NCBI GenBank assembly: GCA_030066085.1
Contig: JASJCI010000032.1
Location: 1 to 64,000, forward strand
Length of the DNA stretch: 64,000 nucleotides
Reading direction: 5' to 3'
Origin: Gammaproteobacteria bacterium
GTDB lineage: Bacteria > Pseudomonadota > Gammaproteobacteria > GCA-001735895
The translations under genes and the position numbers were made by a program. Below, piece by piece: positions 19,331 through 44,174 of the stretch. The notes beneath the pieces are model-generated. The model did no database searches and was not told the origin of the DNA. It saw only the letters and a list, made by a program, of their open reading frames with translations. How positions within the stretch are numbered: the stretch's first letter is position 1; the number at the start of each line of letters is the position of its first letter.

Positions 19331-20152
19331 ATGCCCCGTTTCAATCGACTGCTCATCACCGGCGCCGCCGGTAACCTCGGGCGCGAACTGCGCCGCGGTC
19401 TCGCGCCGCTTGCCACCACGCTCAGGCTCACCGACCGCGTCGAGATGGCGCCGGCGCAAAGCCACGAAGAAACTGTGGTATGCGAGCTCAGCGATTTCGA
19501 CGCTATTTCGAATGCGGTCGAGGGTTGCGATGCCATCGTGCATTTCGGCGCCGCGCCGGTCGAGCGACCCTGGGCGGAGGTGCTGGATTCATCGATCGTC
19601 GGCGGTTACAACGTCTACGAAGCCGCGCGCCGGCATGGTGTCCAACGCATCGTTTACGCCAGCTCGATTCATGCCGTCGGCTACGAGCGGCGCGAGGTCG
19701 GCGCGGATACCGATACGCCGCACAACCCGGACTCGCTGTACGGTGTGTCCAAGTGTTTCGTTGAGGACCTCGCCAAACTCTACTTCAACAAGTGGGGTAT
19801 CGAGTCGGCCCTGCTGAGGATCAATTCCTGTTACCCCAAACCGCGCGATCGTCGCCATCTCGCCACCTGGCTGAGTTTTGCCGACCTGATTCAGCTGGTC
19901 GAGCGCTGCCTGGTATCCGAGCGCATCGGTCATACCGTCGTCTATGGTATTTCCGATAACCGCGAAGCCTTCTTTTCCAATCACAAGGTTGCGCACCTGG
20001 GATACCGGCCCGTGGACAGCGCCGAGGATTACCGTGCCGAGGTCGAGGCCGAGGTAGCGCCGGGCGATCCCTTCGATCCGGGTATCGAGTACGTCGGTGG
20101 TTTCCTGTGTAACTATGGCCATCCGGACGAATCCGAGTACCTCGAGTCCTGA
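19331..20152 (+). CDS. udh: Uronate dehydrogenase-like NAD-dependent SDR
   Basis: A 273-residue extended-type SDR. Rossmann motif TGAAGNLG (residues 10-17), Ser111/112, and YGVSK with catalytic Tyr137 and Lys141. The SLYGVSKCFVEDLAKLYF context matches uronate dehydrogenase (Udh), which oxidises glucuronate or galacturonate to the aldarolactone using NAD+. ATG at 19331 after a GGAG. The product could feed an aldarate pathway, but no such genes are present in the window. Other nucleoside-sugar epimerase activities are possible. Confidence 0.78.
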   Translation: MPRFNRLLITGAAGNLGRELRRGLAPLATTLRLTDRVEMAPAQSHEETVVCELSDFDAISNAVEGCDAIVHFGAAPVERPWAEVLDSSIVGGYNVYEAARRHGVQRIVYASSIHAVGYERREVGADTDTPHNPDSLYGVSKCFVEDLAKLYFNKWGIESALLRINSCYPKPRDRRHLATWLSFADLIQLVERCLVSERIGHTVVYGISDNREAFFSNHKVAHLGYRPVDSAEDYRAEVEAEVAPGDPFDPGIEYVGGFLCNYGHPDESEYLES

Positions 20153-20224: not shown

Positions 20225-21160
20225 ATGTCGATCGATCGGACTGGCGACAGCCACACTACGCACGATGCCGAGGAGGATGCGCGCAACCGCGATATCCTGA
20301 TCTATATCAACGGCGAGCTATTGCATCGGAACGAGGCGAAAGTATCGGTTTACGACTCCGGGTTCATGCTCGGCGACGGCATGTGGGAGGGCCTGCGCCT
20401 GTACCATGGAAAGTGGGCGTTTCTCGCTGAACACCTCGACCGCTTTTTCGACAGCTGCAAGGCCGTATCGCTCGACGTCGGCACCGATCGCGCCGGCATC
20501 GTCGACGCACTCGAGCACACCCGCGAAGCCAACGGCATGTCGCACGATGTCCACTGTCGGCTGATGCTGACGCGTGGCGTCAAGGTCAAGCCTTTCCAGC
20601 ACCCGTCACTGTCACGTTCCGGTCCTACGCTGGTCATCATCATGGAGCATTCTAAGCCGGCGGACGCACTGCAGTCGCGCGGCATCCGGCTCGCGACCGT
20701 GCCGCAGGTGCGCGGCCTGCCGATGGCGCAGGACGCCAAGTACAACAGTCACTCCAAGCTGAACTGCGTGATCGCCTGCCTGCAGGCCGAGCAGGCGGGT
20801 GCCGACGAGGCGCTGATGCTGGATCCGCACGGCTTCGTCAACACCACCAATGCCTGCAACTTTTTCATCGTGCGCCGCGGCGAGGTCTGGACCTCGACCG
20901 GCGACTACTGCATGAATGGCGTGACCCGGCAAAAGGTCGTCGACCTGTGCCGCGCCAACGACATACCGGTATACGAGCGCAATTATTCGCTGGTCGATGC
21001 CTATGGCGCCGACGAGGCTTTCCTGACCGGCACCTTCGGCGCGCAGACGCCGGTGGCCGAGATCGACGGCAAGCCGATCGGCGACGGCAGCCATCCGCTG
21101 ACCGAACGCATTCGTGCATTGTACAAGCAGCTCGTGCTGGAAAACGTCGGCGCCGCCTGA
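20225..21160 (+). CDS. Class IV PLP-dependent aminotransferase (BCAT/DAAT-like)
   Basis: A 311-residue fold-type IV enzyme. PLP lysine is Lys178 (SKLNCVIA), with YDSGFMLGDGMWEG and R-L-x-HL-x-RF typical of the family. Family members include branched-chain and D-amino acid aminotransferases and aminodeoxychorismate lyase. The Glu that normally contacts the PLP ring nitrogen (V-x-E in BCAT/DAAT) is Thr207 here, in GFVNTTNACNFF, marking a distinct subgroup. The first 20 residues are polar and variable, so the true start may be downstream. Located 73 bases after udh on the same strand. Confidence 0.8.
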   Translation: MSIDRTGDSHTTHDAEEDARNRDILIYINGELLHRNEAKVSVYDSGFMLGDGMWEGLRLYHGKWAFLAEHLDRFFDSCKAVSLDVGTDRAGIVDALEHTREANGMSHDVHCRLMLTRGVKVKPFQHPSLSRSGPTLVIIMEHSKPADALQSRGIRLATVPQVRGLPMAQDAKYNSHSKLNCVIACLQAEQAGADEALMLDPHGFVNTTNACNFFIVRRGEVWTSTGDYCMNGVTRQKVVDLCRANDIPVYERNYSLVDAYGADEAFLTGTFGAQTPVAEIDGKPIGDGSHPLTERIRALYKQLVLENVGAA

Positions 21161-21519: not shown

Positions 21520-22410
21520 ATGTCCAGCCTGCGCCGTTTCCGTACGCTGATCGCGATTGCCGAGCAGGGCAATTTCTCCGATGCCGCGCGCTCGGTGTAC
21601 CTGACACCGGCCGCGGTCAGCCAGCAGATGAAGGCGCTGGAGGCCGAACTCGGGGTCGAACTGTTCGATCGCAGCCGGCGACCGCCCGGTCTGAATCCGG
21701 CCGGCTATGCGCTGATCCCGAAGGCGCGCGAACTGGTGCGCATCTACGACTCGATCCTCGATTCCATGGCGGGCGACATCGCGGTCGGTGAAAACCTGAC
21801 CATCGGTACGGTGCCTACAACCATGTCCGAGATGATGCCGCGCGCGCTCAGGGCCATGCAGCGTGAGCGCGAAGAGTTGCACGTGCGGCTTTACCCGGGG
21901 TTGTCGGAAGAACTCTACACCCAGGTCGATCGCGGATTTCTCGATGCCGCGGTGCTGACCGAGCCCCCGGAGATTGCCCGTCACCTGGTGTGGCAACCGT
22001 TTGCGCAGCAGCCGCTGGTGTTGCTCGCGGGTGCGGATGTGGGCGAGGCGAGTCCGCGCGACATTTTGCGCGAACGGCCCTACATCCGCTTCGCGCGCCG
22101 CGCCTGGGTTGGCCGCAAGATTGACCGCTGGCTGGCAGCCAACCGGATCGACGTCAACGAACGCATGGAGCTGGATACGCTGGAGGCCGTCAGCGCGATG
22201 GTCGCCAATGGCCTCGGCGTGTCGATCGTGCCGCTCAACCTGGCGCCGCCGCCCGGTCTCGAGGTTCTGCCGCTGGATCCAGAACGCCTGTTTCGGACCC
22301 TCGGCGTGCTGAGTCGGCGCGACAACGCGCGGCATCGCCTGATCGAATGGCTGCGGCGGGAACTTGGCCAAATCGCCAGCGAGGCAGGGCAGGGCGTCGA
22401 ATCCGAATAA
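21520..22410 (+). CDS. LysR-family transcriptional regulator
   Basis: A 296-residue LTTR: N-terminal winged HTH (LIAIAEQGNFSDAARSVYLTPAAVSQQMKALEAELGVELFDR, residues about 10-50) and a substrate-binding domain. ATG 21520 starts the HTH directly. It lies immediately upstream of, and in the same direction as, the frd-like/fumarase operon. TTAAG-N5-CTTWW dyads occur before its own start and twice before the operon. It therefore probably controls the operon and itself, perhaps with a C4-dicarboxylate as co-inducer (inference). Confidence 0.9.
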   Translation: MSSLRRFRTLIAIAEQGNFSDAARSVYLTPAAVSQQMKALEAELGVELFDRSRRPPGLNPAGYALIPKARELVRIYDSILDSMAGDIAVGENLTIGTVPTTMSEMMPRALRAMQREREELHVRLYPGLSEELYTQVDRGFLDAAVLTEPPEIARHLVWQPFAQQPLVLLAGADVGEASPRDILRERPYIRFARRAWVGRKIDRWLAANRIDVNERMELDTLEAVSAMVANGLGVSIVPLNLAPPPGLEVLPLDPERLFRTLGVLSRRDNARHRLIEWLRRELGQIASEAGQGVESE

Positions 22411-22529: not shown

Positions 22530-23258
22530 TTGCGCGAAGAAATCGGCAAAATCCAGGTGCAGGTCCGCCGCGGCGGGCCCGACGACGGCCGCCTGGTCGA
22601 TTACGAAGTGCCATTGCTGGCGAGCCAGACCGTGCTCGACGTGGTGACCTGGATCCAGCGTAATCTCGAGCCCGCGTTGTCCTACCGCTTCGCCTGCCGC
22701 GTCGGCATGTGCGGTTCCTGCGCGATGACGGTCAACGGCCGGCCGCGCTGGACCTGTCGCTCGCACGTCACCGATGTCATGAAAGACGGTCGTATCCGCA
22801 TCGAGCCGCTGCGCAACCTGCCGGTGATCAAGGATCTCGCCTGCGATCTGTCCGGCTTTTTTGACAAGTGGCAGCGCGCCGAGGGTGCTTTCGTACCGAC
22901 GCAGACGCGCAAGGACTCGCTGGCGCCGATCGCGCCACAGGAACCGGCCCGGCAGGCGGCCAGCGCCGGCATCGAATGTATCAACTGCGCGGTCTGCTAC
23001 GCCGCCTGCGACGCGGTCGAGCAAAATCCCGAGTACCTCGGTCCGGCCGCGCTGAACCGCGCCTGGACCCTGGTCAACGATGCGCGCGATGGTGGCAACC
23101 GCGCACGCCTGCAGGCGGTCACCGGCCCTGGCGGTTGCCAGTCCTGCCATTCGCAGCAGGGTTGCACCAGCCACTGCCCGAACGCGCTCAACCCGACGCG
23201 CTCGATCGCCGGCCTGAAGCAGGCGGCGGCGCGCGCCTGGCTGCGCGGGGAACTCTGA
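22530..23258 (+). CDS. Succinate dehydrogenase/fumarate reductase iron-sulfur subunit
   Basis: A 242-residue SdhB/FrdB homologue that passes electrons from the flavoprotein to the membrane anchor. The [2Fe-2S] site is C-x4-CGSC ... C (RVGMCGSCAMTVNG, RWTC). The second domain has CINCAVCYAAC for the [4Fe-4S] cluster and CQSC...CTSHCP for the remaining clusters, then NPTRSI as in SdhB. Start set at TTG 22530 because CGGGAG lies eight bases upstream; a TTG at 22512 is an alternative. First gene of a B-C-D-A operon, an order unlike the sdhCDAB order of typical proteobacterial SDH. Confidence 0.88.
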   Translation: MREEIGKIQVQVRRGGPDDGRLVDYEVPLLASQTVLDVVTWIQRNLEPALSYRFACRVGMCGSCAMTVNGRPRWTCRSHVTDVMKDGRIRIEPLRNLPVIKDLACDLSGFFDKWQRAEGAFVPTQTRKDSLAPIAPQEPARQAASAGIECINCAVCYAACDAVEQNPEYLGPAALNRAWTLVNDARDGGNRARLQAVTGPGGCQSCHSQQGCTSHCPNALNPTRSIAGLKQAAARAWLRGEL

Positions 23259-23259
23259 G

Positions 23260-23592
23260 ATGCTGGATTTTCGTCTATATCTCGCCCAGCGCATCAGCGC
23301 GATGATCCTCGCGCCGCTGGTGCTGCTGCATCTCGGCGTCATGATCTACGCGGTGCAGGGCGGACTCAGCGCCGAGGAAATCCTCGGCCGCACGCGCGAC
23401 AGTTTATGGTGGGGCTCGGTTTACGGCCTGTTCGTGCTCGCGGTTGCGGTACACGCCGCGATCGGGTTGCGCGTGATCGTCGCCGAGTGGTTCGGACCCG
23501 GCAAACGATCGCTCGATCTGTTGATGTGGCTGGTCATGCTCGGCTTGCTCACACTCGGCGGACGCGCAGTCTACGCGGTGACGCTGGCATGA
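23260..23592 (+). CDS. Membrane anchor subunit 1 of frd/sdh-like complex
   Basis: A 110-residue protein with three predicted transmembrane helices (about 12-32, 50-72 and 86-106). The first helix has AQRISAMILAPLVLLHL, with a His suited to haem or quinone binding, and helix two has AVHAAIGLRVI, like SdhC/SdhD haem-ligand helices (H-x-x-x-G-L-R). Starts one base after the iron-sulfur subunit stop and overlaps the next gene by four bases (ATGA). By position it is an anchor of the same complex. Confidence 0.8.
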   Translation: MLDFRLYLAQRISAMILAPLVLLHLGVMIYAVQGGLSAEEILGRTRDSLWWGSVYGLFVLAVAVHAAIGLRVIVAEWFGPGKRSLDLLMWLVMLGLLTLGGRAVYAVTLA

Positions 23593-23930
23593 TTCGGCCG
23601 CACCGCAGCCAGCCGCTCTGGTACGCGTTTATCCTGCACCGGCTGTCGGGCATCGGCCTCGCGCTGTTCTTGCCGCTGCATTTCTACTTGCTCGGACTCG
23701 CGCTCGGCGACAGCGCGGACTTCGACGCCGCGCTGCAGTGGACCGAGCAGCCGCTGGTCAAGGCGGCCGAGTTCGGTCTCGTATTCCTGCTGTCGGTGCA
23801 CCTGTTCGGCGGCCTGCGCCTGCTGGTGCTCGAGTTCTTTGCCTGGACCGCGGCACAGAAAACGCTCGCCGCCGCCGCCGCGGGGCTGTCGTTCTTCGTC
23901 GCCTGCGGCTTCCTGTTGAGGGCGATCTGA
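23589..23930 (+). CDS. Membrane anchor subunit 2, SdhC-like cytochrome b
   Basis: A 113-residue protein with three predicted transmembrane helices (about 18-38, 60-82 and 90-110). ILHRLSGIGLALFLPLHF closely follows the SdhC signature (H-R-x-S/T-G), and LLSVHLFGGLRLLVLEF supplies the second haem-type His in an H-x-x-x-G-L-R context. Together with the previous gene it should form the quinone- and haem-binding anchor. The ATG at 23589 overlaps the upstream stop (ATGA). Confidence 0.82.
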   Translation: MIRPHRSQPLWYAFILHRLSGIGLALFLPLHFYLLGLALGDSADFDAALQWTEQPLVKAAEFGLVFLLSVHLFGGLRLLVLEFFAWTAAQKTLAAAAAGLSFFVACGFLLRAI

Positions 23931-23932
23931 GC

Positions 23933-25714
23933 ATGCTGCGTACCCTCGATACCGATATCCTGATTCTCGGCTCCGGCGGTGCCGGGCTGCTGGCCGCGAT
24001 CCACGCGCAGCGGCAGAATCCGGAGCTGCAGATCACGCTCGCGGTCAAGGGCCTGATCGGCAAATGCGGCTGCACCCGCATGGTCCAGGGCGGCTACAAC
24101 GTCGCACTATCGGAAGCCGACTCTGTCGAGCGTCATTTCATGGACAGCATCGTCGGCGGCAAGTGGCTGCCGGACCAGGATCTCGCGTGGAAGCTGTGCG
24201 AAACCGCGGTCGAGCGCGTGCACGAACTCGAAAACGAGATGGGCTGCTTTTTCGACCGCAAGGCCGACGGTACGCTGGATCACAAGGCCTTCGCCGGTCA
24301 GACTGCCGATCGCACCGTGCACAAGGGCGATCTGACCGGTATCGAGATTATCAACCGCCTGATGGAGCAGGCGCTGCGCCTGCCGCTGCAAAAACTCGAA
24401 GAGCACCGCGCGCTGGCGCTGGTGCCGAGCCGCGACGGTTCGCGTATCGCCGGGGTGTTGCTGGTCGACATGCGCACGGGAGAGTTCGTGTTGGTGCGCG
24501 CGCGCGCGGTGATGCTCGGCACCGGCGGCGGGCCCACCATGTACCGCTACTACACGCCGTCCGGCGAAAAGAGCATGGACGGGCTCGCGATGGCGCTGCG
24601 CATCGGCCTGCCGCTACGCGACATGGAAATGGTGCAGTTTCACCCGACCGGCCTGCTGGCGGGCAAGGATACGCGCATGACCGGCACCGTGCTCGAGGAA
24701 GGCCTGCGCGGCGCCGGAGGCTACCTGCTGAACGGTGACGGCGAGCGCTTCATGTTCGCGCACGACGAGCGCGGCGAGCGCGCCACGCGCGACATCGTCA
24801 GCCGCGCGATCTACGACGAAATGCGCCGTGGCAATACCACCCCCAACGGCGGCGTCTGCATCGCGATGTCGCATCTCGGCGTCGATCTCGTGCGGCAGAA
24901 GTTCAAGGGCATGGTCAGGCGCTGCGCCGACTGCGGCTTCGATCTGGCCGCGGGGCGGGTCGAGGTGGTGCCGACCGCGCATTACCTGATGGGCGGCCTG
25001 GTCTGCGATACCGAGACCGCAACCGGGATGCCGGGGCTGTACGTCGCCGGCGAAGACGCGGGCGGTATCCACGGCGCCAATCGCCTGGGCGGCAACGGCG
25101 TCGCCAACTCGACCGTGTACGGCGGTATCGCCGGTGAAGTCATGGCCGAACGGGTCGATCTGGCCTCGGCGCTGGCGGATGCCGACCAGGACGTCATCGA
25201 GGCCGCGATCGAACATGCGCGCCGTCCATTTTCCGCCAGCGGCGAGCGCGTCAACGTCAACGACCTGCGCGAAAAGCTGATGGACATCATGTGGGAAGAC
25301 GTCGGTGTGATCCGCAGTGCCGACGGTATCAGGCGCGGCATGCAGCGACTCGCCGCGTTGCGCGACGAACTCTACGCCAGCCCCATCGGCAGCGAGGACC
25401 GCGTGTTCAACCAGACCTGGCACGACTGGCTGAATCTCGACAACCTGATCGAGATATCCGAGGTCATCGCGGCCGCATCCTTGGCGCGGGAGAATTCGCG
25501 CGGCGCGCACTACCGCGAGGATTTTCCCGACAGCGGTTCACTCGACGATTCGTATTTTACCGTCGTGCGCCGCGGCGACGCGGGTCTCGATGTCGTCAAC
25601 GAACCGGTACAATTTACGATTATCCGGCCGGGCGAAACGCTGGTGGAGGGCTATACCGAAACCGCGCCTCAGATCGGCCATTCAGGGGGCCAGCCAACGG
25701 GAAGCGCAGCATGA
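23933..25714 (+). CDS. FrdA/SdhA-like flavoprotein subunit lacking the covalent-FAD histidine
   Basis: A 593-residue FAD flavoprotein. FAD fold DILILGSGGAGLLAAI, catalytic/substrate residues in FHPTG, EEGLRGAGGYLLN, TAHYLMGG and HGANRLGGN are all present, so the dicarboxylate active site is intact. The conserved S-H-T motif whose His carries 8-alpha-linked FAD in SdhA/FrdA reads G-C-T here (Cys47 in KCGCTRMVQGG), so FAD is probably non-covalent. In E. coli FrdA, loss of this His abolishes succinate oxidation but leaves fumarate reduction. This argues against an ordinary SDH. The start at 23933 is two bases after the anchor gene. Confidence 0.88.
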   Translation: MLRTLDTDILILGSGGAGLLAAIHAQRQNPELQITLAVKGLIGKCGCTRMVQGGYNVALSEADSVERHFMDSIVGGKWLPDQDLAWKLCETAVERVHELENEMGCFFDRKADGTLDHKAFAGQTADRTVHKGDLTGIEIINRLMEQALRLPLQKLEEHRALALVPSRDGSRIAGVLLVDMRTGEFVLVRARAVMLGTGGGPTMYRYYTPSGEKSMDGLAMALRIGLPLRDMEMVQFHPTGLLAGKDTRMTGTVLEEGLRGAGGYLLNGDGERFMFAHDERGERATRDIVSRAIYDEMRRGNTTPNGGVCIAMSHLGVDLVRQKFKGMVRRCADCGFDLAAGRVEVVPTAHYLMGGLVCDTETATGMPGLYVAGEDAGGIHGANRLGGNGVANSTVYGGIAGEVMAERVDLASALADADQDVIEAAIEHARRPFSASGERVNVNDLREKLMDIMWEDVGVIRSADGIRRGMQRLAALRDELYASPIGSEDRVFNQTWHDWLNLDNLIEISEVIAAASLARENSRGAHYREDFPDSGSLDDSYFTVVRRGDAGLDVVNEPVQFTIIRPGETLVEGYTETAPQIGHSGGQPTGSAA

Positions 25715-26646
25715 TCAGTCAACAAGTGATACAGGACACCGCCTACGACATCATGGGGCGGGCCGCGATCGATATTCCGCCGGACTACCGCTCGGGCGTC
25801 GAATTCATGATCGAAAAGGAGGACGGCCTGTCGAAGTTCGTGCTGCAGACGATGATGGAAAACTGGGATGCCGCGACCGAGGATCGCCGGCCCATGTGCG
25901 CCGACTCGGGTCTGCCGCGTTATTACGTCAAGGTTGGTAACGAGGCGCAATACGAAGGCGGTCCGATCGGCATCGAGCACGCGCTGCGCGAAGCAACCGC
26001 GAGGGCCACGCACGACATTCCGCTCAGGCCGAACCGCGTGCACCCGCTGTGGCGTACCGATCACAACAATAACGTCGGCATCAACGCGCCCGAGATCGAC
26101 TGGAGCTTCGAGCCCGACGCCGACTGGATCGACATCACCACGGTGCACAAGGGCGGCCTGTTCGGCACCGACTACCGCATGCTGTTCCCGGGCGACGGCA
26201 TCGACGGCATCAAGCGCTTTTTCCTCGACACCCTGCTGTCCTACGGCAAGCGCGGACTCGCGTGCCAGCCGGCGATCGTCGGCATCGGCCTCGGTGGCTC
26301 CAAGGATACGACCATGGTGCTCGGCAAGCAGGCGGCCTGCCTGCGCGTGGTCGGCGATCGTAATCCCGATCCGAAAATCTCCGAGCTCGAACTGGAGCTG
26401 AAGGAGCTCGGCAACAGCATCGGCATGGGCGCGATGGGCTTCAGTGGCAAGTCGATGGTCAGCGACTGTCACATCGAGGTCGGCTACACGCATACCGGCG
26501 GCATGCCGATGAGCGTGCACATGTTTTGCCTGTCGTCGCGGCGCGCGACCGCACGCCTGTTCGCCGACGGCAGGGTCGAGTACCGCACCGACCCGCAGTG
26601 GTTCACCCCCTACATGCGCCGGGAGACGACGTCATGGCAGAACTGA
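25711..26646 (+). CDS. Class I fumarase / tartrate dehydratase alpha subunit
   Basis: A 311-residue iron-sulfur hydro-lyase subunit. MCADSGLPRYYVKVG corresponds to the first cluster cysteine block of two-subunit class I fumarases (C-x-D-T/S-G). ACQPAIVGIGLGGSKDTT and VHMFCLSSRRA supply the other two cysteines of the [4Fe-4S] cluster. Class I enzymes hydrate fumarate, and some act on mesaconate or tartrate. The middle (residues 100-150, WRTDHNNNVGINAPEIDW) differs from textbook fumarases. ATGA overlap with the flavoprotein stop makes it part of the same operon. Confidence 0.85.
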   Translation: MISQQVIQDTAYDIMGRAAIDIPPDYRSGVEFMIEKEDGLSKFVLQTMMENWDAATEDRRPMCADSGLPRYYVKVGNEAQYEGGPIGIEHALREATARATHDIPLRPNRVHPLWRTDHNNNVGINAPEIDWSFEPDADWIDITTVHKGGLFGTDYRMLFPGDGIDGIKRFFLDTLLSYGKRGLACQPAIVGIGLGGSKDTTMVLGKQAACLRVVGDRNPDPKISELELELKELGNSIGMGAMGFSGKSMVSDCHIEVGYTHTGGMPMSVHMFCLSSRRATARLFADGRVEYRTDPQWFTPYMRRETTSWQN

Positions 26647-27314
26647 GCGAAGGGCAAAAGGTCGTGCGCCTGCAGGTGCCGGTATCGCACGACGATATCA
26701 AGGATCTCGAAATCGGCACCGTGGTGTACCTCGATGGCGTGATCTACACCGGTCGCGAGGGCGTGTACAAGCGCGTGATCGAGGACGGTCACGAGATTCC
26801 GCTCGATCTGCCGGCGGTCAGCAACGCCAACTTTCACTGTTCGCCAGCGGCCGCGATCGAACCCGACGGCAGTTACAACGTCGGCGGCGTCACCGCCACC
26901 GCGAGTTTCCGTTTCGCCAAGTGGATGCAGCGCTGGTTCGAGCTTTCCGGCGCGAAGATCATCATTGGCAAGGGTGGCATGTCGAGTTCGGATTACCGCG
27001 AGCTGTTCGTGCCGGCGGGTGCGATTTATCTCACCACGGTCGGTTACGGTACGGGCGCGCTGCTGGGGCGCGGCATCAGGAAGGTACGCCAGGTCGAGTG
27101 GTTCGAAGAGCTCGGCAACGCGCAGGCGATGTGGGTGTTCGAGGTCGAGAACTTCGGCCCGTTTATCGTCGACAGCGATCTCGATGGCAACAGCCTGTTC
27201 GAGCAGCAGGCGGAGCAAGTGAACAAAAACATCGAGTCGCTTTACCAAGGCCTGAAAAAGCCGGCGCTGTCGCGCTACGGCGAAACCGACGATCGCAACG
27301 ACGAGTTGATCTAG
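26634..27314 (+). CDS. Class I fumarase / tartrate dehydratase beta subunit
   Basis: A 226-residue partner of the preceding subunit, matching the FumA C-terminal/TtdB swivelling domain. It has YLDGVIYTGREGVYKR (typical TGRDxAH-like block), GKGGMSS, TTVGYGTGALLG and a conserved WVFEVENFGPFIVDSD close. ATG at 26634 lies inside the end of the alpha gene (13-base overlap), and AUG context rather than a separate promoter implies coupling. With the alpha subunit it should hydrate the product of the upstream dicarboxylate oxidoreductase, or feed it fumarate. Confidence 0.87.
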   Translation: MAELSEGQKVVRLQVPVSHDDIKDLEIGTVVYLDGVIYTGREGVYKRVIEDGHEIPLDLPAVSNANFHCSPAAAIEPDGSYNVGGVTATASFRFAKWMQRWFELSGAKIIIGKGGMSSSDYRELFVPAGAIYLTTVGYGTGALLGRGIRKVRQVEWFEELGNAQAMWVFEVENFGPFIVDSDLDGNSLFEQQAEQVNKNIESLYQGLKKPALSRYGETDDRNDELI

Positions 27315-27894: not shown

Positions 27895-28773
27895 ATGGCT
27901 TCAAATCCCATCCGCAATCTCGATCTCGGTACCCTGCGCAGTTTCGTCACCATCACCGATGCCGGCAGCATGACGCGTGCGGCGGGGCGCCTGTTCATGA
28001 CCCAGTCCGCGATCAGCATGCAGATCAAGCGCCTCGAGGAAGCGCTTGGTTTCAGCGTGTTCGAACGTTCCTCGCAGGGTATGAAAACCACCAGCGAGGG
28101 TGACCAGCTCTATCATTACGCCAGCCAGATGCTGTCGCTCAACGACGAAATCATGGGTCGCCTGACGTCACCGGATTACGAGGGCGAAGTCCGCATCGGC
28201 GTGCCCGGCGATATCGTTTACCCGCATATTCCGAACGTATTGAAAGCCTTCAGCCGCGATTTTCCGCGCGTGCAGATCCGGCTCTCCACCGCGTCGACCT
28301 TTCGCCTGCTGCAGTCCTACGACAAGGGCCGCCATGACATCGTGCTGACCACCGAGCAGTCGCCGCGAAAGGACAGCAACATATTGTTGACCGAGCCGCT
28401 GATCTGGACCGGGGCGATGGATGGCCACGCGTTTCGCAAGCGGCCGCTGCCGCTCGGTTTCGCGCGCCACTGCGCGTTTCGCGCCGGCGTCACGCGGGCG
28501 CTCGATCGGGCCGGCATTCCGTGGGTCGACCTGGTCGTGTCCGACGACGAAGCCGCGATCGAAGCGATGGTGACCGCCGATCTGTGCGTGCATGCCGAAC
28601 TCGAAAGCGCGAGCCGCACCACGCGGGTCGCGATCGATCACGCCGGGCAGCTGCCCGAGCTGCCGCAGCACTCGGTAGCGCTCTACAGCGACGAAAACAC
28701 GCCGAGTCCGATCGTGCGTACGCTGTCGACTTACCTGCAGCGCGCTTTTTTGTGGCAGCCGGTCGCGGCCTGA
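27895..28773 (+). CDS. LysR-family regulator next to taurine-like ABC operon
   Basis: A 292-residue LTTR. HTH residues about 10-70: LRSFVTITDAGSMTRAAGRLFMTQSAISMQIKRLEEALG. The effector domain (from about 95) begins GEVRIGVPGDIVYPHIP, resembling regulators of the DsdC/NhaR-like or sulfonate type, but this is not specific. It precedes an ABC transporter operon on the same strand with 250 bases between, and likely regulates it or the divergent DUF1127 gene. Confidence 0.88.
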   Translation: MASNPIRNLDLGTLRSFVTITDAGSMTRAAGRLFMTQSAISMQIKRLEEALGFSVFERSSQGMKTTSEGDQLYHYASQMLSLNDEIMGRLTSPDYEGEVRIGVPGDIVYPHIPNVLKAFSRDFPRVQIRLSTASTFRLLQSYDKGRHDIVLTTEQSPRKDSNILLTEPLIWTGAMDGHAFRKRPLPLGFARHCAFRAGVTRALDRAGIPWVDLVVSDDEAAIEAMVTADLCVHAELESASRTTRVAIDHAGQLPELPQHSVALYSDENTPSPIVRTLSTYLQRAFLWQPVAA

Positions 28774-29023: not shown

Positions 29024-30049
29024 ATGAAATCCAAACTCAAGTCTTTCCGCCTTGCCACGGTGACCGCAATGCTGGTCGCGGTGACGGCGGTTTCTTCCCT
29101 GCCACAGCGCGCGGCCGCCGACGGCCACGGCATTACCGTGGCTTACTTCCTGGAGTGGCCGATGCCGTTCCAGTACGCCAAGGTCGAGGGCATGTACGAA
29201 AAAGCCCTGGGTATGCCGATCAAGTGGGTTGCTTTCGATACCGGAACCGCGATGTCCGCGGCGATGGCGTCAGGTGACGTGCAGATCTCGGTCAGCCAGG
29301 GTGTACCGCCGTTCGTGGTTGCCGCGTCTGCCGGCCAGGACCTGCAAATCGTCGACGTCGCGGTCAGCTACGCCGACAACGATAACTGCGTGGTTGCCGA
29401 GGCGCTCGAAATCGACAAGACCAATGCCAAGGAACTCGAAGGCAAGAAAGTCGGTGTGCCGAAGGGTACCGCCGCGCACTATGGCTTCCTCAAGCAGATG
29501 GATCACTTCGGCGTCAACATCAACACGATGGAAATCGTCGACATGGCTCCGCCGGACGGTGCCGCCGCGTTTGCCCAGGGCAACCTCGACATGGTCTGCG
29601 GCTGGGGTGGTGCACTGCGTCGCATGGTCGAGCACGGTAACGTGCTGCTGACCGGCGCCGAGAAAACCGAGCTGGGTATCCTGGTATTCGACGTCACCTC
29701 GGTTCCGGCCAGCTTTGCCGCCGAGGAAGCCGAAGTGCTGTCCAAGTTCCTCAAGGTCACCGCCGATGCCAACGAGATGTGGAACTCCGGCAAGCACCGC
29801 GACAAGATGCTGCCGGTGATTGCGAAGGATTCCGGTATGGACGTGGATGCCACCGCGGCCACGATCGACACCTTCGTGTTCCCGTCGGTCGACGACCAGC
29901 TGAGCAAGGCCTGGCTGGGCGGCAACGCACAGGAGTTCATGCTCGGTGTCGCCAACGTCTTCCTCGAAGCGGGCAGCATCGATGCCGCGCGCGAAACCTA
30001 CGAAGACGCGGTGAACCCGATTCCGCTGAACGATGCCGCGGGCATGTAA
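29024..30049 (+). CDS. TauA-like periplasmic substrate-binding protein
   Basis: A 341-residue exported solute-binding protein. Signal peptide through about residue 33 (AAADG), then ITVAYFLEWPMPFQYAKVEG, typical of the TauA/SsuA-NMT1 family, which binds taurine, alkylsulfonates, nitrate or pyrimidine precursors. The ligand cannot be fixed; the Trp/Tyr-rich start and GDVQISVSQGVPP fit taurine-type pockets. The CGAGGAG at 29011-29017 decides the start. First gene of a binding protein-ATPase-permease operon. Confidence 0.85.
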   Translation: MKSKLKSFRLATVTAMLVAVTAVSSLPQRAAADGHGITVAYFLEWPMPFQYAKVEGMYEKALGMPIKWVAFDTGTAMSAAMASGDVQISVSQGVPPFVVAASAGQDLQIVDVAVSYADNDNCVVAEALEIDKTNAKELEGKKVGVPKGTAAHYGFLKQMDHFGVNINTMEIVDMAPPDGAAAFAQGNLDMVCGWGGALRRMVEHGNVLLTGAEKTELGILVFDVTSVPASFAAEEAEVLSKFLKVTADANEMWNSGKHRDKMLPVIAKDSGMDVDATAATIDTFVFPSVDDQLSKAWLGGNAQEFMLGVANVFLEAGSIDAARETYEDAVNPIPLNDAAGM

Positions 30050-30141
30050 GCGGCGCGATTCACGTTAATCGCATGCGAAGCCGGGCGGCGTTCGACGAAT
30101 GCTGCCCGGCTCTCGCCAATAATAATCAGGGGGGATAACCG

Positions 30142-30948
30142 ATGTCGGATCTGAACATCGACGAGCTGTCCATGCGCTTCGATCTGCCGAACGGCACGCA
30201 CGTGCAGGCGCTGCTGGACGTCAATCTCGAGTTAAAAACCGGTGAACTGATGTCGGTGCTGGGTCCTTCGGGCTGCGGCAAGACGACGCTGTTGAACATC
30301 GTGGCCGGTTTTCTCGCACCGACCAAGGGCCAGGTTCGACTGAACGACGAGGTTGTCACCGGCCCGGGCCGTGATCGCGGCATGGTGTTTCAGCAGGGTG
30401 CACTGTTCGAATGGATGAGCGTACGCGAAAACATCGCCTTCGGGCCAAAGATGAAGAAAACGCCCGCGGCGCGTACGCGGGAAATTGTCGATCACCTGCT
30501 CGAGACGGTCGGCCTGCAGGACTTCGGTGAAAAGGCGGTTTACGAGCTGTCGGGCGGCATGCAGCAGCGGGTGGCGCTGGCGCGCTGTCTCGCCAATGAA
30601 CCCGAGGTCATCCTGATGGATGAACCGCTCGGCGCGCTCGATGCGCTCACGCGCGAAAAAATGCAGGGTCTCGTGCTCAAGCTGTGGAAAGAGACCGGCA
30701 AGACGATCATCCTGATCACGCACTCGGTGGAGGAAGCCCTGTTGCTGGGCGAACGCCTGCTGGTCATGGCGCCGCGACCGGGCCGCATTCACAAGGAATA
30801 CCGGTTGCCGTTCGCCGAGGCCGGCGTCAACCAGGATTTGCGTGAAGTCAAAAAGATCCCGGAATTCGGTGAACGCCGGGAAGAGATACTGTCCATGATC
30901 TGGGAAATGGAAGAAGAGATCATGGGCCGGGCGGAGGAAGGCGCATGA
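30142..30948 (+). CDS. TauB/SsuB-like ABC transporter ATPase
   Basis: A 268-residue ATPase. Walker A GPSGCGKTT (about residues 41-49), Q-loop FQQGALFEW, signature LSGGMQQR, Walker B VILMDEPLGALD and the H-loop ITHSVEEA are all present. The spacing and the MAPRPGRI segment are those of the nitrate/sulfonate/taurine subfamily. A C-terminal acidic helix (EMEEEIMGRAEEGA) extends beyond the domain. It ends in an ATGA overlap with the permease gene. Confidence 0.93.
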   Translation: MSDLNIDELSMRFDLPNGTHVQALLDVNLELKTGELMSVLGPSGCGKTTLLNIVAGFLAPTKGQVRLNDEVVTGPGRDRGMVFQQGALFEWMSVRENIAFGPKMKKTPAARTREIVDHLLETVGLQDFGEKAVYELSGGMQQRVALARCLANEPEVILMDEPLGALDALTREKMQGLVLKLWKETGKTIILITHSVEEALLLGERLLVMAPRPGRIHKEYRLPFAEAGVNQDLREVKKIPEFGERREEILSMIWEMEEEIMGRAEEGA

Positions 30949-32207
30949 TTATTCTATCCATGTACATCGCGATCTTCGTGGTCGCGTTCTTCGCCGTTTC
31001 GTTAATTACCCGCGGCCGCGAAGACAAGGGTTTCAACGCCCTCAAGACGGTGACCTTCGGCGACGAAAGTGCGGTCTCGCCCAACCGGGCAGCGGCGGTT
31101 ATCTCGGTGGCCACGATTTTCCTGATCTGGGGTGCGTTCACCGATTCCAAACTGGTGCCGTTCCATGTCTCCGGTCCGTTCATCGGCGAAACCTCGTTTA
31201 CCTATACCGCGACCAATGCGGCCGGCGACGAAGATGACGGCGAAGTCAGAATCGTGGTGCACAAGATCGGCGAAAAGCCCGATGCGCCGGAGGTCGAGGA
31301 CGGCGACGGCTTCGTGCGCAACGACAGCTCGCTGGTCGGCGCCTGGCGCTCCAAGCTGATCAACGCCAAGCGCAACGACGAAGGTTACAAGGAAGACGGC
31401 TATCGTATCATCGCGGTCGACGGGCAGCCGATCGCGCCGGGGCAGAGCGTGCAGGTTGCCGACGGCGAGGTCGCGCTGACCGACAAGCAGTCGTTCAACT
31501 TCACCCCGCTAAAAGGCCTGCAGCTGGAGCCGATCTGGATGCCGGCGCCCGAGGCCGTGGTGCAGCGCTTCATCGACATCGCGCAGAACGGCTACCAGAA
31601 CTTCGGCCTGTGGGAACACCTCGGCTGGTCGCTGATCCGGGTCGTGGTCGGTTTCCTGATCGGTGCGCTGGTCGGTATTCCGCTCGGTTACGCGATGGGT
31701 TTGTCCGGCTGGTTCCGCGGCTGGTTCGACCCGATCGTCGAGTTCATGCGCCCGGTGCCGCCGCTGGCGCTGATCCCGCTGGTCATCATCTGGTTCGGCA
31801 TCTGGGAAACCGGCAAGATCGTGCTGCTGTTCCTGGCGTCGTTGTGGATCATGACGATTGCCGCCCGCGCAGGCGTGTCCGGCATCAATATTTCGAAGGT
31901 GCACGCCGCCTATTCGCTGGGTGCATCGAAGACCCAGCTCATGTGGCACGTCATAGTGCCCAACTCGCTGCCGGAAATCTTCACCGGTGCGCGCGTTGCC
32001 ATGGGCGTCTGCTGGGGCACGGTGGTCGCGGCCGAACTGGTCGCGGCGCAAAAGGGCGCCGGCATGATGATCATCGCCGCGTCCAAGTTCCAGCTCACCG
32101 ATATCGTGTTGATGGGGATCATCATGATCGGCATCATCGGTTACGGCATCGATATCCTGATGCGCAAGACCGAGAAATGGCTGGTGCCCTGGAAGGGACG
32201 TCACTGA
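30945..32207 (+). CDS. TauC/SsuC-like ABC permease with an Ig-like periplasmic insertion
   Basis: A 420-residue permease, against about 250-290 for normal TauC/SsuC. Residues 1-21 form an extra transmembrane helix. Residues 48-66 are the canonical first helix. Residues about 71-195 are an inserted soluble region in the first periplasmic loop. The canonical loop (PIWMPAPEAVVQRFIDIA) and the remaining helices follow from about 197, with the EAA-type loop HAAYSLGASKTQLMWHVIVP. The insert starts with TSFTYTATNAAG...GEVRIVV, a pattern of bacterial Ig/cadherin-like domains, and ends in GYRIIAVDGQPI. It faces the side where the binding protein docks. Confidence 0.85.
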   Translation: MIILSMYIAIFVVAFFAVSLITRGREDKGFNALKTVTFGDESAVSPNRAAAVISVATIFLIWGAFTDSKLVPFHVSGPFIGETSFTYTATNAAGDEDDGEVRIVVHKIGEKPDAPEVEDGDGFVRNDSSLVGAWRSKLINAKRNDEGYKEDGYRIIAVDGQPIAPGQSVQVADGEVALTDKQSFNFTPLKGLQLEPIWMPAPEAVVQRFIDIAQNGYQNFGLWEHLGWSLIRVVVGFLIGALVGIPLGYAMGLSGWFRGWFDPIVEFMRPVPPLALIPLVIIWFGIWETGKIVLLFLASLWIMTIAARAGVSGINISKVHAAYSLGASKTQLMWHVIVPNSLPEIFTGARVAMGVCWGTVVAAELVAAQKGAGMMIIAASKFQLTDIVLMGIIMIGIIGYGIDILMRKTEKWLVPWKGRH

Positions 32208-36475: not shown

Positions 36476-37174
36476 TCAATCAGCGTGTACGATGGTCGTG
36501 GTGATTTGTCCGAGTCCCTCGATTTCGATCGTGATGACGTCGTTCGCCTGCAGCGGGCCGACCCCGGCCGGAGTGCCGCTGTAAATCAGGTCGCCGGCCA
36601 TCAGGGTGATGCTGCGCGACAGGAACGCGATCTGTTCGGGTATGCTCCAGATCATGTCCGCCAGGTCCGCGTCCTGGCGGATCTCGCCGTTGACGTCGAG
36701 ACGGATGAAGCCCTGGCCCGGGTGCCCGACCGCGGCGACCGGGTGCAGGGGACCGCACACGGCGGAATGGTCGAAGCCCTTGCCGAGATCCCAGGGACGA
36801 CCCATGTCGCGCGCGGCCAGCTGCAGATCGCGCCGGGTCAGGTCGTTGCCGATCGCGTACCCCCAGACGTGATCCAGCGCGGCAGCCTCGTCGATATCGA
36901 CTCCGCCATGGCCGAGGGCAACCACGAGTTCCGCCTCGTAGTGCAGGTTCGCGGTTTGCGGCGGATACGGGATCCGGGTCCCGTCGTCGACCACCGCGTC
37001 GGCCGGCTTGGTGAAAAAGAACGGCGGTTCGCGATCCGGGTCCTTGCCCATCTCGCGTGCGTGCGCGGCGTAGTTGCGCCCGACGCAGAAAATGCGCCGC
37101 ACCGGGAAACGGGCGGCGCTGCCGACAACGGCGACGGTTGCAGGCGCCGGCGGTTCGAACACGTATTCGGTCAT
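36476..37174 (-). CDS. Fumarylacetoacetate hydrolase-family protein, probable fumarylpyruvate hydrolase
   Basis: A 232-residue FAH-family hydrolase. FCVGRNYAAHAREMG, the metal-binding LHYEAELVVALG, NDLTRRDLQ, KGFDHSAVCGP and SGTPAGVGPL are the conserved blocks. Close to gentisate dioxygenase, it is best explained as fumarylpyruvate hydrolase (NagK type), giving fumarate and pyruvate. ATG at 37174. It is separated from gentisate dioxygenase by a 187-base repeat-filled gap, and 3-7 bases from MarR. Confidence 0.85.
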   Translation of the reverse strand: MTEYVFEPPAPATVAVVGSAARFPVRRIFCVGRNYAAHAREMGKDPDREPPFFFTKPADAVVDDGTRIPYPPQTANLHYEAELVVALGHGGVDIDEAAALDHVWGYAIGNDLTRRDLQLAARDMGRPWDLGKGFDHSAVCGPLHPVAAVGHPGQGFIRLDVNGEIRQDADLADMIWSIPEQIAFLSRSITLMAGDLIYSGTPAGVGPLQANDVITIEIEGLGQITTTIVHAD

Positions 37175-37196
37175 AAGTGTTTACCTCAAATCAAAA

Positions 37197-37337
37197 CCGT
37201 CGTCCCCGCGCAAGCGGGGACCTTGTAAAGCGCGCTCTGCACGAGATCCCCGCTTTCGCGGGGATGACGGGTAAGGGCGTGGGGATGACGGGTAAGGGCG
37301 CGGGGATGACGGGTAAGGGCGCGGGGATGACGGCAAG
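37197..37337. repeat. Palindromic element with a 21-bp tandem repeat
   Basis: A bipartite element (CCCCGCG-CAA-GCGGGG, then CCCCGC-TTTC-GCGGGG) is followed by four tandem units of 21 bases, GCGGGGATGACGGGTAAGGGC type: 37258-37278, 37279-37299, 37300-37320 and a truncated 37321-37337. Unit two has one substitution (GTGG). It looks like stepwise amplification of the right end of a repeat element. There is no gene in this gap. Confidence 0.8.
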
Positions 37338-37361
37338 TGCTGATGGATGACACGGGCAAGA

Positions 37362-38411
37362 TCACGCATCACCCCGCTGTTCGCGCCAGAAGCCGAGTTT
37401 TTGCTGCGCCACGCGATCGGAGTAGCTGAACAGCACGGCTTCGTCGTCGGCCTCGTGCTCGATCCACTTCCAGCTCGGCGCGACGAAGATATCGCGCGGA
37501 CCCCAGTCGAAGGTCTTGCCATCGATGGTCGTGCGGCCATGGCCCTCGGTGGAAACGAACACGGTGGCGTCGGTACTGCGGTAAGCGCGGGTGCGCATAC
37601 CTTGCGGCAGCAGCTGCAGGAAGGCGGAAATCGTCGGCATCGCGAAACCGCCGTCGGCCGGGTTGACGTAGCGCAGCTTGAGCCCGTGGCACGGATCCCA
37701 TTCCTGTTGCCGCTTGAGCGCCTCGAGCGCCTCGCGCGAACGTTCATAGGGGTAGTTGAAAATCGGCGAGGCCAGTTCACGGGGTTCGAAATCGACCGGC
37801 AGCATATTGGCGCCGTAGCGCGCGAGACTGTCGCCAGTCGGCCGGGTCTGCGCCTGGGTGTCGGCCGCGCCCGGTTCGGCGAACGATGCGTCGAAAAAGC
37901 TGGCAAGCGGGATATCCAGGCCGTCGAGCCAGATCATCGGCTGGTCGCTTTGATTGCCGTGGTCGTGCCAGGCCCAGGGCGGCGTGATGACAAAATCGCC
38001 GAACGACATCAGCGTGCGTTCGCCCTCGACCGCGGTGTAGGCGCCGTCGCCGTCGATGACGAAACGCAGCGCCGACTGGCTGTGTCGATGCGCCGGCGCA
38101 ACCTCTCCCGGCAACACCAGCTGCAGCCCGGCATAGAGCGAAGTCGTGATCCTGGATTGCCCGCGCAGGCCCGGGTTTTCGAGGATCAGCACGCGCCGCT
38201 CGGCCTCTTTGGCCGTGATCAGTTCGCCGGCCTCGAGCAGCCATTCGCGCAGCGGCGCATAGCGCCAGCAATGGGGTTGGCAGGCGCTTTTCGGTTCGGG
38301 GGTGATGATGTCGGCGAACACGGTCCACAGCGCGTTGCAGTTGCCTGCATTTATCTTGTCGTAAAACGCGAGGCGTTCGGGCGTTTCCGCCGGTTTTTCG
38401 GTCAGGGACAT
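37362..38411 (-). CDS. Gentisate 1,2-dioxygenase
   Basis: A 349-residue bicupin ring-cleavage dioxygenase that opens gentisate to maleylpyruvate using Fe(II). The N-terminal cupin has the iron motif AHRHSQSALRF (His108, His110) with PPWAWHDHGN supplying the third ligand. WRYAPLREWLLEAGELI and PGLRGQSRITTSLYAGLQLVLPGE are conserved gentisate dioxygenase blocks. GAGGAG precedes ATG 38411. It begins 16 bases after the hydroxylase gene. No maleylpyruvate isomerase gene follows. Confidence 0.9.
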   Translation of the reverse strand: MSLTEKPAETPERLAFYDKINAGNCNALWTVFADIITPEPKSACQPHCWRYAPLREWLLEAGELITAKEAERRVLILENPGLRGQSRITTSLYAGLQLVLPGEVAPAHRHSQSALRFVIDGDGAYTAVEGERTLMSFGDFVITPPWAWHDHGNQSDQPMIWLDGLDIPLASFFDASFAEPGAADTQAQTRPTGDSLARYGANMLPVDFEPRELASPIFNYPYERSREALEALKRQQEWDPCHGLKLRYVNPADGGFAMPTISAFLQLLPQGMRTRAYRSTDATVFVSTEGHGRTTIDGKTFDWGPRDIFVAPSWKWIEHEADDEAVLFSYSDRVAQQKLGFWREQRGDA

Positions 38412-38427
38412 GGTTTGCTCCTCGATG

Positions 38428-39615
38428 TCATGGATCGAGACCGGTGCCGCCGTAGAGCCAGGCCAGCCGATCGTACCAGTCATCGGTCGACAGCCCTGAC
38501 ATGATCTGGTTACGGACCTCGGCGACCGCGCCGGCGGCATGGTAGACGTAGTCGCCGATCAGGCGCGAATCGAGCTGTACGCGCGCGGTGCGCACGCGAC
38601 GCTGGCGCTGGTAGCGATCGAGCGCGGTTTCGATATCGTCGCTATGGGAACCGAACATGTGGCTCAGGCAGACCGCGTCCTCCAGCGCCATGCAGGCGCC
38701 CTGGGCGAAGTACTGCAGCATCGGGTGGGCGGCGTCGCCGAGCAGCGCAACCCGTCCGTCGACCCAGTCGAGTACCGGGTCGCGGTCGCACAGCACCCAC
38801 AGTTTCCAGTCCTCGCCGTGTTCGATGATCTGTTGCGCGCGCGGGTGGATATGCTCGAAACCCTGGCGCACTTCGTCCTTGCTGACCGGTTTGCCGGTCA
38901 CGGCTTCCTCGACGTCGTTGTGATAAGTCACGACCAGGTTGAAGACTTTCCAGCCCTTCAGCGGGTAATGCACGATGTGACATTTCGGTCCGGCCCACAG
39001 CGTGGCCGCGTTCCAGCGCAGGTCCGCGGGCATGCGCTCGGCCGGAATCACCGAGCGATAGGTCGTATGGCCAGATACGCGTGGTTCACCGTCGCCGATC
39101 AGCTGCGCGCGCAGGTTCGAGCGCAGACCGTCGGCAGCGATCAGCGCACGCCCGTCGAGCGGGTCGCGGTCCTCGAGGAGAACCCGTACCGAGCTGCCGT
39201 CCTGTTCGTAACCGAGCACATTGTGGCGGGTGCGTAACTCGATCAGGTCGCTGGCGCGGCAGGCATCGAGCAGGGCACCATGCAGGTCGGCGCGGTGTAC
39301 GACCGCGTAGGGATTACCGAAGCGCCGGCGAAAATCGGCTTCGAGCGGGATTGCCGCGATCTGCTCCGCCGACAACGCGTCCATCAGGCGCAGATGATCG
39401 ATGTAGACTGCGCGGGTGCGCGCCTGGTCGCCAACGCCCAGGTAATCGAAGCAGTGGAACGCATTGGGACCGATCTGGATGCCGGCGCCGATTTCGCCGA
39501 GCTCGGCGGCGCGTTCCAGCACGATCGACGCGATACCCTTGCGCGCGAGACCGAGCGCGGCGGCGATACCACCGATGCCACCACCGGCTATGATGACGGG
39601 CAGGGTCCGTGCCAT
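38428..39615 (-). CDS. FAD-dependent 3-hydroxybenzoate 6-monooxygenase
   Basis: A 395-residue flavin monooxygenase. FAD motif VIIAGGGIGGIAAALGLARKG at residues about 7-27, the GDAAHPMLQYFAQGACMALEDA block near residue 290, and VHRADLHGALLDA. QYFAQGACMALEDA is typical of 3-hydroxybenzoate 6-hydroxylases (and salicylate hydroxylases), which make gentisate. Next to gentisate dioxygenase this is the best assignment; salicylate 5- or 1-hydroxylase remains possible. First gene of the gentisate operon. Confidence 0.85.
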   Translation of the reverse strand: MARTLPVIIAGGGIGGIAAALGLARKGIASIVLERAAELGEIGAGIQIGPNAFHCFDYLGVGDQARTRAVYIDHLRLMDALSAEQIAAIPLEADFRRRFGNPYAVVHRADLHGALLDACRASDLIELRTRHNVLGYEQDGSSVRVLLEDRDPLDGRALIAADGLRSNLRAQLIGDGEPRVSGHTTYRSVIPAERMPADLRWNAATLWAGPKCHIVHYPLKGWKVFNLVVTYHNDVEEAVTGKPVSKDEVRQGFEHIHPRAQQIIEHGEDWKLWVLCDRDPVLDWVDGRVALLGDAAHPMLQYFAQGACMALEDAVCLSHMFGSHSDDIETALDRYQRQRRVRTARVQLDSRLIGDYVYHAAGAVAEVRNQIMSGLSTDDWYDRLAWLYGGTGLDP

Positions 39616-40401: not shown

Positions 40402-41626
<1,225 letters not shown>

Positions 41627-41650
41627 TCCAGGCAATAAAAGGAGGCGCCC

Positions 41651-42445: not shown

Positions 42446-42818
42446 CGCGTACGATGCCGGCATGTCGATTCGCCGCCGCGTGCTCGGCGATGCGCACGTG
42501 GATGCGGCCAAGGCGCGCAAGACCGATTTCGATGCGGCCTTTCAACAGCTGATTACCGAGGCTGCCTGGGGAAGGGTGTGGGCGCGCGACACAATCAGCC
42601 TGCGCGAACGCTCGATGCTGACGATCGCGCTGCTGGCCGCGCTCGGCAACGACGACGAGGTCGCGATGCACGTGCGCGCCTGCGCCAATACCGGCGCGAG
42701 TCCCGACGATGTCATGGAGGCCCTGCTGCACGTTGCAGTGTACGCGGGCGTAGCGCGCGCCAACCGCGCGATTCGCATCGCGCGTGAAGTCTATGCCGAC
42801 ATGGGATCCGAGCCGTGA
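42438..42818 (+). CDS. pcaC: 4-carboxymuconolactone decarboxylase
   Basis: A 126-residue PcaC (AhpD-like fold). [20 protein letters not shown] and [25 protein letters not shown] with the C-terminal [16 protein letters not shown] block are family hallmarks. It decarboxylates 4-carboxymuconolactone to the enol-lactone. ATG 42438 lies in the end of pcaD, and its stop overlaps the pcaH GTG (GTGA). Confidence 0.95.
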
Positions 42819-43552: not shown

Positions 43553-43554
43553 GC

Positions 43555-44169: not shown

Positions 44170-44174
44170 TCGTC

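Follow-up and report, generated by a model that had tools for sequence, protein, structure and literature searches.

Why would a flavoprotein of the complex II superfamily lack the histidine to which flavin adenine dinucleotide (FAD) is attached, while being encoded together with heme b anchors and a two-subunit class I fumarase? This question is raised by six genes in a 64,000-nucleotide stretch of DNA (positions 1 to 64,000 of contig JASJCI010000032.1, assembly GCA_030066085.1, from a gammaproteobacterium), hereafter called the window. After analyzing the alignments, gene neighborhoods and distribution of this locus, we consider it fairly probable that the six genes encode a respiratory module in which 3-sulfopropanoate is oxidized and the resulting 3-sulfoacrylate is hydrated to 3-sulfolactate. 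The genes lie on the + strand (22512/22530-27314, with two possible starts of the first gene) in the order B, C, D, A, fumarase alpha and fumarase beta. B and C are separated by 1 bp, C and D overlap by 4 bp, D and A are separated by 2 bp, A and alpha overlap by 4 bp, and alpha and beta overlap by 13 bp; the gene order and tight packing given in the initial annotation of this DNA agree with these values.

At least 587 candidate stretches of the genome collection encode a relative, and the relatives that we studied were the best 80 of these matched stretches plus plasmid loci. When A was aligned with E. coli FrdA and SdhA and with the SdhA of the same genome, their S-H-T motif fell on G46-C47-T48 of A, which confirms the initial observation that Cys47 takes the place of the FAD-attachment histidine. 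The catalytic residues H237, T239, E256, R286, H350 and R384 were also found to be retained, as had been noted from the sequence; however, Thr244 (E. coli FrdA numbering) has become Glu255, a substitution that had escaped the initial annotation. A covalent-FAD SdhA/FrdA carries both the S-H-T histidine and Thr244, and A carries neither. In E. coli quinol:fumarate reductase (QFR), Thr244 hydrogen-bonds the substrate carboxylate, and the covalent FAD linkage, which is needed for succinate oxidation, raises the potential by about 100 mV (PMC10238741).

Both substitutions are fixed throughout the family. Cys47 is invariant in 89/89 bacterial A proteins (one from the window, 80 from the best matched stretches and 8 from plasmid loci) and is also kept in two haloarchaeal plasmid copies, which bring the set to 91, and in Rhodococcus jostii RHA1 and Cupriavidus. 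Glu255 is present in 91/91, as are Lys131 and Arg283, whereas FrdA, SdhA and NadB carry His, His and Ser at the Cys47 column, and Thr, Ala and Leu at the columns of Glu255, Lys131 and Arg283, respectively. A is 32-34% identical to these three references, aligned along its whole length, and in a FastTree phylogeny with representatives the A family grouped in a single clade, separated from both SdhA/FrdA and NadB with a support of 1.00. The best NCBIfam model for A was TfrA, at 478.8 bits against a cut-off of 718, and the NadB model TIGR00551 likewise stayed below its cut-off (350.1 against 452.75 bits). Because these four residues are invariant and the clade is separate, the sequences indicate that Cys47 is the mark of a family whose active site has changed in a way of its own, and not of a decayed succinate dehydrogenase (SDH). 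The flavin of A is probably not histidyl-linked.

The other subunits place the module in two superfamilies. A flavoprotein, an iron-sulfur subunit and anchors are encoded together, as in complex II (succinate:quinone oxidoreductase (SQR) and QFR). B matches chain B of 1kf6 (E=5.4e-39) and keeps the cluster cysteines, and the heme-ligand histidine motifs are conserved in both anchors when these are aligned with E. coli SdhD and SdhC (ILHRLSG and VHLFGGLR in D). The last two genes carry the Fumerase and Fumerase_C domains and the cluster-ligand cysteines of class I fumarases, and their products match 7xky_A (E=5e-54) and 7xky_B (E=1.6e-26). However, they miss the fumarase and tartrate dehydratase equivalog cut-offs (PRK06246, 192.7/276; TtdA, 157.4/365; TtdB, 119.3/264 bits), and the CQDTG motif of alpha has become the family-specific C[AG]D[ST]G. 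Loss of the fumarase catalytic threonine in beta was at one point taken for a special trait and was dropped, as another two-subunit fumarase also lacks it.

The best 80 relatives belong mainly to Alpha- and Gammaproteobacteria. B-C-D-A-alpha-beta stand together in nearly all loci that are long enough, and relatives of LysR1, which is encoded upstream of B on the same strand, adjoin the module in about half (about 40/80). Within the window's order the module was present in 21/41 genomes, all of the window's own genus, and in 0/10 genomes of other genera. Several variants were found. Methylobacterium oryzae and a metagenome-assembled genome (MAG; locus L059) have a more conventional class I fumarase and a different gene order, Rhodococcus has the arrangement B-A-anchors-alpha-beta, and haloarchaea (L095 and L099) have only A and B of the module and no class I fumarase. 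A CaiB/BaiF CoA-transferase gene lies between fumarase alpha and beta in L036 (10759-11874) and also in L037, L049, L056 and L060.

Sulfite-handling genes were found near the module above expectation. TauE/SafE occurs within 8 kb of it in 22/33 genomes compared with 0.84 expected (these genomes hold 3-12 copies each); a naive Poisson calculation gives P of about 1e-23, which overstates independence. YeiH (a "sulfate exporter"), SorA/SoxC-like sulfite dehydrogenases and NIPSNAP proteins are recurrent neighbors across several orders. A passage of PMC11489063 describes one TauE as a probable 3-sulfopropionate exporter; therefore, TauE need not mean sulfite, although it still means sulfonate. TctABC also recurs, and the transporters beside the module vary (TctABC, TauABC-like, Liv-like, TRAP and DctA-like), as expected if it serves a peripheral catabolic pathway. 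TauB/TauC-type genes, which form part of the candidate sulfonate importer in the window, also lie beside the module in L053, L057, L058, L073, L080 and L059.

Enzymes of sulfolactate metabolism accompany the module as well. In L059 a single strand reads SuyB-B-C-D-TauE-ABC transporter-fumarase alpha/beta-A-hydroxyacid dehydrogenase-Ldh, in which the 2-hydroxyacid dehydrogenase is SlcC-like and the top NCBIfam model for Ldh is L-sulfolactate dehydrogenase, below its cut-off. L098 has a UxaA pair, Ldh, a molybdopterin oxidoreductase, YeiH and TauE near the module, and L096 has Ldh and a hydroxyacid dehydrogenase. In the haloarchaeal loci, A and B are accompanied by a UxaA-type pair (SuyAB-like), TauE and an ArgH-like lyase that replaces the class I fumarase. 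The Ldh of L095 scores best against L-sulfolactate dehydrogenase, and the ArgH-like lyase of this locus lies above the argH cut-off while also scoring 257 bits (cut-off 575) against XcbC, an enzyme of coenzyme M biosynthesis. In Xanthobacter, sulfoacrylate is both a product and a substrate of enzymes from the ArgH-like superfamily.

We propose the following mechanism. ABCD, a paralogue of complex II, would oxidize 3-sulfopropanoate to 3-sulfoacrylate, with the electrons reaching ubiquinone by way of the iron-sulfur clusters and heme b, and the two-subunit class I fumarase-like enzyme would add water to 3-sulfoacrylate to give 3-sulfolactate. These compounds would act as isosteres of succinate, fumarate and malate, with a sulfonate in place of one carboxylate, and 3-sulfopropanoate is the suggested substrate because the sulfonate analogue of this segment ends at sulfolactate, on which the neighboring enzymes act. 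Cys47 would imply a non-covalent FAD of lower potential; such a flavin would not suit succinate, yet it could serve a couple of lower potential when ubiquinone accepts the electrons. Loss of the histidine in a ubiquinone-linked dehydrogenase would make sense if the substrate couple lay below fumarate/succinate, as is expected of sulfoacrylate/3-sulfopropanoate. Sulfolactate could then enter known routes, being converted by SlcC/ComC and SuyAB to pyruvate and sulfite, or via sulfopyruvate by Xsc or cysteate lyase, and the sulfite could be exported through TauE or oxidized.

A passage of PMC11489063 cites a thesis in which Roseovarius nubinhibens ISM, grown on homotaurine, converts 3-sulfopropanoate through sulfoacrylate to sulfolactate. 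The contig of this strain (L036) reads TauE-LysR-TctCBA-B-C-D-A-alpha-CaiB-beta, and our 3-sulfopropanoate hypothesis predates our sight of that passage. A published enzyme assignment for these steps was not found in the open-licence literature, to which our search was confined; one may exist elsewhere.

The genome also appears to hold exits for sulfolactate, unlinked to the module, since SuyA and SuyB are encoded on contig C47 (SuyB 76% identical to that of L059), followed by a thiamine pyrophosphate (TPP) enzyme of the type found beside the module, and an Xsc above cut-off on contig C43. A search for sulfite dehydrogenase in this genome returned as its main PF00174 match a protein of 302 aa with an MsrP-like appearance. 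The C47 region (97243-101914; L120, 9244-13915) merits a separate remark. Its first TPP enzyme is 53% identical to one adjacent to the module in Sulfitobacter (L091); next come an FMN-dependent alpha-hydroxyacid dehydrogenase-like protein and another TPP enzyme. The family of the first TPP enzyme also occurs with the module in 14 other loci, and sulfopyruvate may be what it acts on.

Several observations weigh against the proposed route. We had predicted that SuyB would track the module within the window's order, and this failed (7/21 genomes with the module, 6/20 others); SuyB is also absent from 18/33 other module genomes, including R. nubinhibens. Consequently, there must be further exits from sulfolactate, unless some genomes have a different substrate. 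No sulfite gene adjoins the module within the window, where only the TauABC-like transporter, below curated cut-offs, lies next to it. A glutamate at the Thr244 position is no obvious sulfonate binder. The TauE counts are phylogenetically non-independent and the plasmid loci are a non-random sample; homology is the basis of the names SuyAB, SlcC and ComC, and no match to a SuyAB model was obtained with the profile library used. Finally, the action of ABCD and the hydratase on sulfonates is proposed from sequence and context.

Some of these difficulties would be met by another sulfonate, and sulfosuccinate was in fact our first sulfonate hypothesis. Its oxidation to sulfofumarate, followed by hydration at the sulfonate-bearing carbon, would give a bisulfite adduct whose breakdown yields oxaloacetate and sulfite. 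This accounts for TauE, Sor and YeiH without sulfolactate enzymes and also for the loci that lack SuyB. A substituted substrate has a precedent, as class I fumarases hydrate mesaconate to citramalate according to a passage of PMC4682846. However, this route leaves SuyB, Ldh and the hydroxyacid dehydrogenase unexplained, both in the single-strand run of L059 and in haloarchaea, and neither a sulfosuccinate/sulfofumarate route nor its enzymes were found in the open-licence literature. It was demoted once these genes had been seen in the module run, and we now regard it as unlikely. The conversion of methylsuccinate via mesaconate to citramalate, and on through a CoA-transferase, is more doubtful still, and we give it very little credence. 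The initial annotation was right to consider an oxidoreductase coupled to a hydro-lyase; the mesaconate or tartrate that it suggested fits poorly with the recurring neighbors, whose products export sulfite, oxidize it or act on sulfolactate. The only mesaconate-like hint is the CaiB/BaiF gene between the fumarase genes, which is confined to a few alphaproteobacterial loci and scores 188.5 bits against a mesaconate CoA-transferase cut-off of 700; branched dicarboxylates were rejected as the main explanation on that score, and they would leave the sulfite and sulfolactate genes unexplained.

Could the module instead act on ordinary C4 acids, either reducing fumarate or serving as an additional succinate dehydrogenase? 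A is homologous to FrdA and SdhA, its best model is TfrA, albeit below cut-off, and relatives whose FAD is non-covalent are described as able to reduce fumarate but not to oxidize succinate (PMC9557727). In contrast, the anchors are SQR-like with heme b, threonine has given way to glutamate in every member aligned, and the neighborhoods point to sulfonates. MqnA was not found in a search of this genome, and no MenD scored above cut-off. Quinol:fumarate reductase is thermodynamically unlikely with ubiquinone as the sole quinone, given the midpoint potentials, and a menaquinol fumarate reductase is unlikely because MqnA and a MenD above cut-off are missing. The fumarate reductase offered by the initial annotation was thus rejected on quinone and residue grounds. 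Its statement that this is not the housekeeping enzyme stands: contig C71 encodes a canonical SHT-type SdhA adjoining an SdhE gene, and contig C61 another class I fumarase, which is left out of the fumarase alignment. A NadB-like protein, used in the phylogenetic comparison, is encoded on contig C28. We therefore hold a role in ordinary C4 metabolism to be improbable, and retain 3-sulfopropanoate as the preferred substrate.

Coordinates, proposed identities and supporting matches of the module and its neighbors in the window
Feature	Position	Strand	Basis
Class IV aminotransferase, possible accessory gene, directly 5' of LysR1	20225..21160	+	PF01063
LysR1, LysR-type regulator, likely for the module	21520..22410	+	LysR family by Pfam/NCBIfam
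B, SdhB/FrdB-like iron-sulfur subunit	22530..23258 (alternative start 22512)	+	TIGR00384, 185.7 bits, above cut-off
C, SdhD-like membrane anchor, HAxIG heme-ligand motif	23260..23592	+	PF01127 above cut-off; E. coli SdhD alignment
D, SdhC-like cytochrome b subunit	23589..23930	+	TIGR02970, 56.1 bits, above cut-off; E. coli SdhC alignment
A, SdhA/FrdA-homologous flavoprotein, 593 aa; proposed 3-sulfopropanoate dehydrogenase	23933..25714	+	PF00890 and PF02910; alignment; own clade
Class I fumarase-like alpha; proposed 3-sulfoacrylate hydratase alpha	25711..26646	+	PF05681, 222 bits
Class I fumarase-like beta; proposed 3-sulfoacrylate hydratase beta	26634..27314	+	PF05683, 85.5 bits (longer frame)
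Second LysR-type regulator, possibly for the adjoining transporter (association only)	27895..28773	+	PF00126 and PF03466
TauA/TauB/TauC-like ABC transporter, candidate sulfonate importer	29060..32207	+	Best matched by NCBIfam models for subunits of the taurine ABC transporter
Transporter substrate-binding protein	29060-30049	+	152/304 bits, below cut-off
Transporter ATPase	30142-30948	+	274.8/357 bits, below cut-off
Transporter permease	30960-32207	+	233.9/342 bits, below cut-off

Homologues of the aminotransferase, 68-71% identical, also lie near the module in the Rhodobacteraceae loci L066 and L069. Elsewhere in the window, an NAD-dependent epimerase/dehydratase family protein (19331-20152, +), which presumably resembles uronate dehydrogenase, has as its top NCBIfam match the glucose-6-phosphate dehydrogenase Azf, below cut-off. 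The N-terminal and the C-terminal part of an 829 aa protein (7955-10444, +) each match CaiB/BaiF CoA-transferase. A gentisate cluster (36476-39615, -) encodes a 3-hydroxybenzoate 6-monooxygenase and a gentisate 1,2-dioxygenase, both above cut-offs, with a fumarylacetoacetate-hydrolase-family protein, and a protocatechuate branch (40436-45500, +) encodes 4-hydroxybenzoate 3-monooxygenase, pcaD, pcaC, pcaH and pcaG above cut-offs and a pcaB-like gene below.

Extending the proposal to the whole family, we are inclined to think that this branch of complex II, to which no function had been assigned, is devoted to sulfonate:ubiquinone oxidoreduction. Together with a hydratase derived from fumarase, or with an ArgH-like lyase in the case of haloarchaea, it would make up a "sulfo" version of the segment that leads from succinate via fumarate to malate. 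3-Sulfopropanoate would then be respired by several proteobacterial classes, an actinobacterium and haloarchaea, and loss of the FAD histidine would tune the flavin to a lower-potential substrate. 3-Sulfopropanoate arises from dihydroxypropanesulfonate (DHPS) derived from sulfoquinovose, and from homotaurine, and a paper from 2024 (PMC11489063) states that its bacterial degradation was unreported apart from a thesis. On a conjugative plasmid of strain NT-25 (L090, 22047-24572), a "Sulfolactaldehyde 3-reductase" and GabD are encoded 3' of the module and could convert 3-hydroxypropanesulfonate to 3-sulfopropanoate. If our proposal is correct, the module provides candidate genes for this gap in at least 587 matched stretches of bacterial genomes and a new substrate for complex II, and it may fill enzymatic gaps in the organosulfur degradation of hundreds of bacteria and of some haloarchaea. 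The automatic names "succinate dehydrogenase" and "fumarate hydratase" are probably wrong for this family, which affects metabolic models. Moreover, the invariant His-to-Cys and Thr-to-Glu replacements offer a naturally occurring test of the part that covalent flavin and Thr244 play in setting complex II specificity.

Among known systems, SlcC/ComC and SuyAB with TauE form a described sulfolactate route (PMC12421959), homologues of which recur beside the module; in this genome SuyAB is encoded at a distance from it. The proposed module would supply this route with sulfolactate. The described route starts from sulfolactaldehyde or sulfolactate, and the passages of that source on it do not mention a complex II or fumarase homologue. 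Two-subunit class I fumarases and TtdAB share both subunits and the cluster cysteines with our hydratase candidate, for which 7xky is a solved relative, and differ from it in the CQDTG motif and the equivalog scores. NadB (L-aspartate oxidase) belongs to the same flavoprotein superfamily as A and also lacks a histidine at the FAD-linking site; however, it has Ser in place of Cys47 and Glu at the position of Phe120, has no anchors, is 34% identical and falls in a separate clade. The thiol:fumarate reductase Tfr of methanogens, reported to have non-covalent FAD, provides the top model for A, although A scores far below the TfrA cut-off, the module has membrane anchors, and its B is of normal SdhB length, with a match to the longer TfrB model that is limited to the initial portion of that model. 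SdhABCD and FrdABCD are similar to the module in their four subunits, FAD domain family, iron-sulfur motifs of B and heme-ligand motifs in both anchors. In contrast to them, the module has Cys47 and Glu255 at about 33% identity, the order B-(SdhD)-(SdhC)-A, an operon shared with fumarase-like genes and LysR, and sulfonate-related neighborhoods.

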